Source: Methanocellales archaeon
GTDB taxonomy: Archaea; Halobacteriota; UBA148; JAUWXC01
DNA length: 64,000 nucleotides
Direction: 5' to 3'
Assembly: GCA_030610945.1 (NCBI GenBank)
Contig: JAUWQV010000004.1
Coordinates: forward strand, 1-64,000
Positions within the stretch are counted from its first letter, which is position 1. Every line of letters starts with the position of its first letter. Positions 21,714 to 51,483 of the stretch are shown here, piece by piece. The notes under the pieces are model-generated. The model was not told the DNA's origin, made no database searches, and was given only the letters and a program-made list of their open reading frames with translations. A program made the position numbers and the translations under genes.

Positions 21714-21924
21714 TTGGCGAGATGAAGCCTGCGAAGAAAGCCAACTTGTCATCTACGGATGGCAACTGTTGTACATAAACCTGGGTTAACAACCAGGGAA
21801 GGGTGCAACTAAACGTCTTGGCAGTAAGACGTTGAAGCGAAACACGTAGGAAAAAGACCCAAAGGAAGAAAATCCGATAGATTATATCTAATCGATAAGT
21901 ATTCTCCGGGTCAAGTCTCGCCAC
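21714..21924 (+). ncRNA. Candidate structured non-coding RNA, unknown family
   Basis: This gap between two minus-strand genes folds into a closed multibranch structure on the plus strand. A closing stem TGGCGAGA/TCTCGCCA pairs 21715-21722 with 21916-21923. Inside it are a hairpin at 21746-21765 with 8 pairs capped by a cUACGg tetraloop, a CCTGG/CCAGG stem (21780-21797), a perfect 8-pair stem AACGTCTT/AAGACGTT (21812-21833), a GACCC/GGGTC helix (21856-21860 with 21908-21912), and within that a bulged hairpin at 21875-21894. One G-U pair and the UACG loop favour plus-strand transcription. It does not match RNase P, SRP or tRNA as I know them. It ends against the metG 3' end, so it does not lead into a gene. 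Confidence 0.7.
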
Positions 21925-21925
21925 T

Positions 21926-23593
21926 TCATTTTATGGATTCTAACTTGGCTTTTTGTTCTGCAATATCTTCGTCTTCAAGCATTTTGAACAGTGGTGTTAC
22001 ATCTTTTATGGACTGGAACTTAACGGGTTCTTTTGCAGAGTGCCACTGCTGCTCATGAACGGAGTCACCGTATCCCAGCATGTTCCAAAGTTTTTGCGCT
22101 GAAAAAGGCAGGAATGGTACCATCAAAATAGATAAAGCCTTCACGATGCATGCACTCACGTAAAGCGTACTCGCACCGGCGTTTTTATCAGCCTTCCAGG
22201 GCGCTTTCTCGTTGAAGTACTGGTTGCCAAGTGATGCCAAACCCATCACACCTGCCATTGCCTTTTTGAACTCACAGTTTTGGATGTGCATTCCAACGAT
22301 ATCCACTGTTGCACTGATTTCTTCCATTACGGATTTGTCCCTTTGGCCAAGGGTGCCTGGCTCTGGTATGGCGCCATCATAGAAGCGGCCAATAAACGTC
22401 AGCACCCTGTGCGCAAAATTGCCCAATGTTGACACGAGTTCCTCATTATTTCTACGTTGAAACTCGTCCCATGAAAAGTCAGCATCCTTGGACTCTGGCA
22501 TGTTAATAGACAAACAATATCGCAGTGGATCCGGGTCAAAATGCTCTAGATACTCGTTCAGCCAGACCGCGTAGCCCCTACTGGTAGAAAATTTGCCCCC
22601 TTCAAGGTTCAGGAATTCATTTGCAGGCACATTGGTCGGGAGATTTAATCCGCCATGACCTAACAGCATCGCCGGCCATATAATCGTATGAAAGGGGATG
22701 TTGTCCTTTCCGATGAAATAATATGTCTCAGTATCAGGAGATTTCCACCATTCAACCCATCCGTCCGGATCGCCTTTGTTGATGAAATATTCCTTCGTTG
22801 CAGAGATATAACCGATAACTGCTTCGAACCATACATATAGGACTTTGTCCTCTGCGCCCTTAATTGGTACAGAAACCCCCCACTCCAAATCACGTGTGAT
22901 GGGCCTGTCCTTCAACCCTTCTTTTAACCAGTTGATGGTAAATTGGTATACATTGGAGCGCCATATATCCTTCTTTGAGTCTATCCATTTTATGAGCCTA
23001 TCCTGAAACGCAGAGAGTTTAAAGAAGTAATGCGTCCGCTCCCGTATTTCCGGAGCTGACTCACAATGTTTGCAGCGCGGGTTTACGAGCTCTGTAGACT
23101 CAAGCGTCCTGCCGCAGGCATCGCACTGATCTCCTCTTGCTTCTTCGGCGCCGCATTTTGGGCATGTGCCCTCTACATACCTGTCAGGCAAAAATCTCCT
23201 GCACTTAGGACAGTAGAATAACTCCATGGCTTTTTCGTAGATGTAGCCGTTTTTTGATAACGTCAGAAAGAATTCCTGCGCTGTTTTGCGATGATTGTCC
23301 GTCGTTGTCCGCGTGAACAAATTGTATGAGCAGCCGATGTCCTCTAATGAGCGCTTGATGACCTTGTGATATTTGTCAACAATTTCTTTTGGCGGGCATC
23401 CCTCTTTGTCTGCCTGCACTGATATTGGCGTGCCGTGTTCGTCTGTTCCCGATACCATCAGTGTCTCGTTTCCAATCATCCTGTTATATCTGGCAAAGAT
23501 GTCTGCCGGCAGATAAGAGCCAGCCAGATGTCCCAAGTGCAGTGGACCATTGGCATAGGGCCATGCAGTCGTTACGAGAACTTTTTTGTGCAT
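21926..23593 (-). CDS. metG: Methionyl-tRNA synthetase
   Basis: Class I synthetase charging tRNA(Met). The 555-residue protein shows the HIGH box as HLGH (about 18-21), a zinc-binding connective region with CPKC...CPKCG...CDAC...CKHC, and the KMSKS loop as KFSTS. It lacks the C-terminal EMAPII-like tRNA-binding domain, which many archaea encode separately. It is divergently transcribed from the MNT gene, with 85 bases between them. Confidence 0.97.
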   Translation of the reverse strand: MHKKVLVTTAWPYANGPLHLGHLAGSYLPADIFARYNRMIGNETLMVSGTDEHGTPISVQADKEGCPPKEIVDKYHKVIKRSLEDIGCSYNLFTRTTTDNHRKTAQEFFLTLSKNGYIYEKAMELFYCPKCRRFLPDRYVEGTCPKCGAEEARGDQCDACGRTLESTELVNPRCKHCESAPEIRERTHYFFKLSAFQDRLIKWIDSKKDIWRSNVYQFTINWLKEGLKDRPITRDLEWGVSVPIKGAEDKVLYVWFEAVIGYISATKEYFINKGDPDGWVEWWKSPDTETYYFIGKDNIPFHTIIWPAMLLGHGGLNLPTNVPANEFLNLEGGKFSTSRGYAVWLNEYLEHFDPDPLRYCLSINMPESKDADFSWDEFQRRNNEELVSTLGNFAHRVLTFIGRFYDGAIPEPGTLGQRDKSVMEEISATVDIVGMHIQNCEFKKAMAGVMGLASLGNQYFNEKAPWKADKNAGASTLYVSACIVKALSILMVPFLPFSAQKLWNMLGYGDSVHEQQWHSAKEPVKFQSIKDVTPLFKMLEDEDIAEQKAKLESIK

Positions 23594-50549: not shown

Positions 50550-50738
50550 ATGACAAAAACAATCGAGGTTGTTTATGAGAAAGGAGTCTTTAAACCTCTG
50601 GAGCCCGTGAAAATGAAGGAAGGAGAAAAGGTAAAGGTCGAAATAAAGAAGTTGCCGGAGGGACTTTTTGGGATTTTCCGTGGAAAGGATTTGTCGAAGC
50701 TCTTAGAGGAAACCGAAGATGAATGGGGTATTTATTGA
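50550..50738 (+). CDS. DUF104-type antitoxin
   Basis: A 62-residue protein MTKTIEVVYEKGVFKPLEPVKM..., the DUF104 fold used as antitoxin for PIN toxins in archaea. The TATA box TTTTTATAC (about 50491-50499) puts the transcript start near 50522, after the in-frame ATG at 50517, so the ATG at 50550 is preferred. It overlaps the toxin gene by 20 bases. Confidence 0.85.
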   Translation: MTKTIEVVYEKGVFKPLEPVKMKEGEKVKVEIKKLPEGLFGIFRGKDLSKLLEETEDEWGIY

Positions 50739-51144
50739 CTCAAACGTCTTTCTGGAATTCTTAAAAGGAAAAGAAAGAGCAAAAACACTTCTTGAGGACT
50801 ATTTAGATCTCGAGGGATGCATCAATGACATCGTCTTTTCGGAGGTCTTGTTCGTCTATATTAAAGCAGAAACGGGGAAGAAGTCCTATGAATTGAAGAG
50901 GCAACCTGAACTCGTGAAGTCCGTTGAACTCAATGACATCCTGGAGTTACTGGGAAGATATAGGATGCTTGAGGTCGGTGAGGCTGTCAAGAGTGAAGCG
51001 GAAGGAATCATCAAGGAATATGGGTTACTTCCAAACGATGCACTTATCGCTGCTACGTGCAAACATTATGATATAAAGAAAATAGCTACTTTCGATCCCG
51101 ATTTTAAGAGGGTTGATTTTTTAGAAGTAATCATGCTGGAATGA
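50719..51144 (+). CDS. PIN-domain toxin
   Basis: A 141-residue PIN ribonuclease with acidic site residues in FIDSNVFLEF (D7), FSEVLF, PNDALIAATC and TFDPDFKRV. It is paired with the DUF104 antitoxin upstream. Likely targets are tRNA or rRNA, but these are not shown. Confidence 0.88.
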   Translation: MNGVFIDSNVFLEFLKGKERAKTLLEDYLDLEGCINDIVFSEVLFVYIKAETGKKSYELKRQPELVKSVELNDILELLGRYRMLEVGEAVKSEAEGIIKEYGLLPNDALIAATCKHYDIKKIATFDPDFKRVDFLEVIMLE

Positions 51145-51483
51145 TTTTATTTTTTGATTAACCTTTTTACATGCATAATCGAGATGATTTTACTTCCAGC
51201 CGATCTCATAAAATGAGGATTGAAAGGTTGTAGAGAGTCACTCATAAACTACCTAGGTACTACCTAGGTGGATCTCTCATTTTCGATTGTCGTTGAGAGA
51301 AATAAAGTTCAAAAAGGATGTGTAGGCTTACTTGGAGCAGATTTATAATCTTTCAAACAGTCACATATCGAAGACTGGCCAAATCAACAGATTTAGACAG
51401 ACTCACAGATGTTTCATCTGTGACCTCTGTGAGAGTCGTAACCCTTATGGGGTTTTGACACGTCAAAATACTCGGAGTATCCT
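51145..51483. other. 339-base gap: hairpins, tandem palindromes, CRISPR-repeat-like motif
   Basis: No gene is seen. It holds a stretch at about 51201-51226 with a CTCAT-AAA-ATGAG stem ending in GGATTGAAAG, resembling archaeal CRISPR repeats but present once. It also has an exact 11-base tandem ACTACCTAGGT (51248-51258, 51259-51269), each with the palindrome ACCTAGGT, and a perfect 9-pair hairpin TCACAGATG-TTT-CATCTGTGA (51403-51423). Tandem palindromes are typical protein-binding sites. Confidence 0.5.

Follow-up and report, generated by a model that had tools for sequence, protein, structure and literature searches.

The RNA gene and its surroundings

The analysed stretch of 64,000 nucleotides of archaeal DNA (hereafter, the window) contains, on its plus strand, a single-copy RNA gene of about 210 nt that lies in the intergenic region between a divergent orphan open reading frame (ORF) of 180 aa and metG (Table 1). 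The product of the 180-aa ORF has no Pfam match and is kept in two of three families. The minimum free energy calculated for the plus-strand RNA is -77.4, compared to a mean of -46.2 for shuffled sequences (z = -7.3; none of the 200 shuffles was as low), and the minus strand of the same region shows weaker folding (z = -3.5). When 1216 fragments from both strands of the window were scanned (mean z of -0.09, standard deviation of 1.2), the RNA region had the second-lowest z. ARAGORN predicted neither a tRNA nor a tmRNA in this region.

The lowest z in the scan (-5.7) belongs to a plus-strand segment at 51241-51451, and its part from roughly 51360 to 51455 is similar to a dispersed repeat that has about ten matches in the genome of Ca. 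Serpentinarchaeum aceticum Met12 (hereafter, Met12). A single copy of the sequence CTCATAAAATGAGGATTGAAAG (51205-51226, plus strand) is present in the window, some 60 nt beyond an ORF of 141 aa (50719-51144) whose product looks like a PIN/VapC toxin. This sequence is identical to the repeats, with a spacing of about 73 bp, of CRISPR-like arrays on two contigs (C24 and C39) of the genome G009; possibly, it is a CRISPR relic or a mini-CRISPR beside the toxin gene.

Table 1. Coordinates of the RNA gene, its helices and the flanking features in the window
Feature	Position	Strand	Remarks
Orphan ORF, 180 aa	21069-21611	-	divergent from the RNA gene
Upstream element TTATCAGACTCTATACCAGAATGTTTACCAAAA	21652-21684	+	kept in homologues; period-12 repeat
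TATA-like box TTTTTTTAA	21685-21693	+	from sequence; kept in relatives
RNA gene	21714-21923	+	covariance model match E 1e-68 to 1e-72 (own copy in training set); covariation
P1, 5' strand	21715-21723	+	9 pairs with 21915-21923, one U-G; 2 pairs with compensatory changes
P2, 5' strand	21728-21733	+	6 pairs with 21845-21850; 2 pairs with compensatory changes
P3a	21740-21741	+	2 pairs with 21837-21838; closes inner four-way junction
P3b hairpin	21746-21765	+	8 pairs, one U-G; compensatory changes in 5 of 8 pairs
P4	21768-21774/21803-21809	+	3 pairs with compensatory changes
P4b	21780-21784/21793-21797	+	loop GUURAYAA; 2 pairs with compensatory changes
P5 hairpin	21812-21833 (21812-21819/21826-21833)	+	perfect 8 pairs in window copy; 3 pairs with compensatory changes
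P2, 3' strand	21845-21850	+	partner of 21728-21733; from pair count
P6 domain	21856-21912	+	its pairs included in covariation count
P6	21856-21860/21908-21912	+	nearly invariant
P6b	21864-21866/21903-21905	+	within P6 domain
P7 hairpin	21875-21894	+	length-variable; within P6 domain
P1, 3' strand	21915-21923	+	partner of 21715-21723; from pair count
T-rich stretch CTTCATTTTATG	21924-21935	+	directly after the RNA
metG	21926-23593	-	convergent with the RNA gene

The first-pass annotation had noted a TATA-like box upstream of the candidate RNA, and this observation holds: the centre of TTTTTTTAA lies some 25 nt ahead of the start of the RNA, and the box is preceded directly by a BRE-like ACCAAAA and is kept in the relatives. 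The genes for the SRP and RNase P RNAs of the same order have BRE/TATA-like sites at similar distances. The element farther upstream, TTATCAGACTCTATACCAGAATGTTTACCAAAA, consists of approximately three TACCA-type units with a 12-bp spacing, the last of which doubles as the BRE-like ACCAAAA; G009 lacks one 12-bp unit, and another genome, G006, lacks the first. Copies of this element elsewhere in the genome showed no clear excess over a control pattern, and it was rejected as a regulon motif on these grounds. At the other end of the gene, the T-rich stretch CTTCATTTTATG is a possible transcription end; an identical 12-base sequence adjoins the RNA in Met12, despite a different downstream gene.

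The gene downstream of the RNA is metG in three genomes and fen1 in five, convergent with the RNA gene in each case; only in Met12 is the downstream gene co-directional, namely, a Tfx gene whose ATG follows the RNA by about 10 nt. The next gene is therefore convergent in eight of the nine genomes, so that the RNA is not a leader, as already proposed from the convergence with metG in the window. The gene upstream of the RNA likewise varies between families. In Met12 (locus L119, 6540-9673), the Tfx-type regulator adjoins genes whose products look like a tungstate/molybdate ABC transporter.

Secondary structure

The RNA is predicted to fold as a closed multibranch scaffold, in which P1 would enclose the P2 arm and the P6 domain, and the P2 arm would carry an inner four-way junction formed by P3a, P3b, P4 and P5. 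The closing stem P1 had been reported with 8 pairs; the stem is present but has 9, one of them U-G. All the inner helices seen at first pass, of which there were at least four, were recovered, including the perfect 8-pair stem (P5) and the stem capped by cUACGg (P3b), along with the further stems listed in Table 1. The UACG tetraloop of P3b is invariant in all nine full-length copies, and P3a carries a double change from G-C to C-G between the two sequence clusters described below. Within the P6 domain, a conserved GAAAA (21868-21872) lies opposite AAGUA (21897-21901), an arrangement whose sequence resembles the loop-E/sarcin-ricin module. A search for pseudoknots in the RNA yielded nothing but a weak 3-pair contact between the P4b and P5 loops.

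Covariation, conservation and strand

The comparative analysis is based on an alignment of nine full-length homologues that are 69-98% identical, with few indels. Standard pairs account for 97.4% of the predicted pair cells in these nine sequences. Covariation and conservation in relatives, named beforehand as one of the points on which the candidate might fail, turned out to be strong: 20 of the 58 pairs are changed on both sides, compared to a mean of 12.1 in shuffled alignments, with none of the 500 shuffles as high, a figure that is not a probability because the sequences are related and, moreover, form two main clusters, so that a change shared by descent within one cluster enters the count repeatedly. 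When the partners were slid by 1-3 columns, pairing fell to 33-42%; this is a better control than the shuffle, yet it is biased towards any structure inferred from those very sequences. Nine of the ten helices contain at least one double change; because the exception, P6, is nearly invariant, the case for this helix consists of conservation and folding energy. Given that the fold is preserved by matching double mutations, the molecule almost certainly acts as RNA. The strand also can be assigned: the nine full-length homologues contain 41 G-U cells against 8 A-C cells, which places the RNA on the plus strand.

Among the unpaired columns of the alignment, 55 of 99 are invariant, and among the paired columns, 53 of 116. 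The conserved single-stranded stretches (UGAAG, AAAAAGA, UAAA and GAAAA) are short and fall within internal loops or at junctions. None of the reading frames stays open in all nine homologues.

Distribution of the RNA

The archaea that carry the RNA form a small group, found in serpentinite springs and comparable habitats. Covariance models built across the related archaea, the check proposed with the original candidate, detected homologues in 10 of the 11 genomes searched from the same order (the Ca. Serpentinarchaeum group, UBA148 in GTDB), with one match per genome. The RNA is present in all six genomes of the order that are at least 90% complete, and the sole genome of the order that yielded no match is 63% complete. 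The carriers include Met12, Met33H (CP061209), UBA148 and related 'Methanocellales' metagenome-assembled genomes (MAGs). In one of the models (R2), P6b is one column off, with three weak pairs, and the matches to the other helices are unaffected.

A plain DNA search likewise found clear homologues confined to the order, and the covariance models gave no match at E <= 0.1 in 383 genomes searched from the rest of the phylum. With laxer filters applied to 35 genomes, a single match was obtained (L135), which was rejected given its E value of 0.48. Two further loci from outside the order, L068 and L070, matched the model weakly; both matches overlap a conserved ORF of 144 aa and were rejected as well, and pattern matches in bacterial genomes and viral contigs failed against the covariance model. 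There was no match to the RNA in phage and plasmid records. Homologues in more distant lineages may have diverged beyond the reach of the model.

A truncated copy is found in the MAG G006 (76% complete; JAJOKI010000078; locus L067, 1501-1720), in which the promoter and the first 70 nt or so of the RNA are intact and are followed by unrelated sequence that runs into a Tfx-like ORF. The RNA may have been lost in this organism, or the contig may be misassembled.

Function of the RNA and alternative explanations

The window thus carries a conserved, noncoding, free-standing structured RNA gene on the plus strand that is not linked to one downstream gene, is present across the order and falls outside the known families. 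We have little doubt that the RNA family itself is real and new. It appears probable, with a clear reservation as to the combination as a whole, that this is a free-standing, trans-acting structured RNA of about 200 nt, with its own promoter, that forms the core of a stable ribonucleoprotein (RNP) and is specific to the order. The RNA would be transcribed from its own promoter, as the conservation of that promoter suggests, and would act in trans as the core or scaffold of the RNP. This reading is suggested by two observations: conservation of the unpaired bases is no lower than that of the paired ones, a pattern that tertiary and protein contacts would produce, and the RNA is retained in reduced genomes of about 1 Mb.

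A trans-acting regulatory sRNA, which would control mRNAs by base pairing or sequester a regulator protein via the conserved single-stranded stretches, is the next explanation to be considered. Upstream of the RNA lies a predicted promoter of its own, whose conserved element with a 12-bp period is unusual and suggests regulation, and unpaired stretches are indeed conserved. However, a compact, mostly paired and wholly conserved fold is atypical of pairing sRNAs, and the brevity of the conserved stretches and their placement in junctions or internal loops further argue against such a role, which we consider unlikely.

The high conservation of bases in the junctions and internal loops, together with the complex multi-helix architecture, could also be accounted for by a catalytic or ligand-binding RNA, that is, a ribozyme or a free-standing aptamer, with the conserved junctions serving as the active or binding site. 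Yet, convergent genes lie downstream in eight of nine genomes and the RNA does not form the 5' leader of any particular class of genes, so that a usual riboswitch or other cis leader was rejected; nor does the RNA match any of the ribozymes or riboswitches in Rfam. A function of this kind is rather improbable.

That this is a known archaeal RNA (RNase P, SRP, 5S, H/ACA, C/D or the IS605-linked HgcC) in strongly diverged form, or a replacement for one, is harder still to reconcile with the data, although the size would suit a housekeeping RNA and the 5' end (UUGGCGGG in most relatives) is similar to the start of the SRP RNA in the same genome. The failure to place the RNA in a known class at first pass was borne out by searches at permissive E values: five loci, namely, the window copy and four homologues, gave nothing in Rfam up to E = 1; in the RNA region of the window, raising the limit to E = 10 brought up just two matches, both of them meaningless and located on the minus strand; and no family reached its gathering score anywhere in the window. 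RNase P RNA was rejected as a candidate given that there is no match to RF00373 and the true RNase P RNA is located elsewhere in every genome that is at least 90% complete. The same holds for SRP RNA (no match to RF01857, with the true one at another place, also in the genome to which the window belongs) and for 5S rRNA (no match to RF00001, found elsewhere in 8 of 8), whereas tRNA and tmRNA were dismissed for want of an ARAGORN prediction. The boxes required of modification guides are not at the required positions: there is no exact C box common to all copies, CUGA (D box) is absent from five copies and in the other four occurs only at about position 67, and no copy has an ANA near the 3' end, so that neither box C/D nor H/ACA sRNA is tenable. 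By-eye inspection of the alignment showed no consensus kink-turn of the kind that L7Ae binds. An IS605/HgcC-type RNA was rejected as well, considering that the RNA is single-copy and has no Rfam match, and that no TnpA, TnpB or other transposase gene was recognised next to it. Altogether, descent from a known RNA is very improbable.

Last, the fold might have arisen by chance, or the region might be an element acting at the DNA level or encode a small protein on the minus strand, where an 82-aa ORF overlaps the RNA in the window. These readings are scarcely credible in the face of the compensatory changes and the strand asymmetry of the G-U cells, as well as of the breakage of the reading frames in relatives by 1-nt indels and stops and the lack of a Pfam match for the 82-aa ORF.

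Returning to the order-specific RNP, we tentatively propose, as one plausible scenario among several, that the RNA is the core of a hitherto undescribed RNP, or else a ribozyme, that evolved in this order with reduced genomes and was kept as a housekeeping component. To our knowledge, few structured RNAs are known in archaea beyond RNase P, SRP, rRNA, tRNA and the modification guides. An order-wide RNA of about 200 nt that has an elaborate conserved fold and no known relative and is kept in metabolism-poor genomes of about 1 Mb would point to an unrecognised RNA-based function. Met12 has a circular genome of 1,067,436 bp (CP017966) without methanogenesis genes, in which the RNA occupies positions 68320-68529. 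Its total-RNA reads, from libraries in which rRNA was not depleted (SRX17443944, SRX17443945, SRX17443946 and SRX17428102), are public in SRA (PMC11176372), which makes the existence of the RNA immediately checkable.

Comparison with known RNAs

In the open-access papers that were searched, no RNA of this sort is described for the lineage. Among known archaeal RNAs, the HgcC-type orphan noncoding RNAs of Thermococcales are comparable in that both they and the RNA described here are structured, lineage-enriched and were first found by sequence analysis. HgcC is multicopy and often located in transposase genes (PMC4247193); in contrast, the RNA in the window is single-copy and intergenic, has its own predicted promoter and does not match any Rfam model. 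With archaeal SRP RNA (RF01857), it shares the organisation as a free-standing gene of a stable RNA, a BRE/TATA-like promoter of its own and similar first eight bases, and with archaeal RNase P RNA (RF00373), the multibranch fold and the free-standing gene. It differs from both in that it does not match the respective models and coexists with the true RNAs, the SRP RNA being found elsewhere in the same genome and the RNase P RNA elsewhere in the relatives.

The bacterial orphan structured RNAs OLE and raiA have a conserved elaborate fold and conserved junction bases and often form their own transcription unit. Compared with these via Rfam, the RNA described here belongs to a different domain of life and shows no similarity to their models. 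Free-standing orphan structured RNAs are thus already known as a general kind, and the novelty lies in the RNA family.
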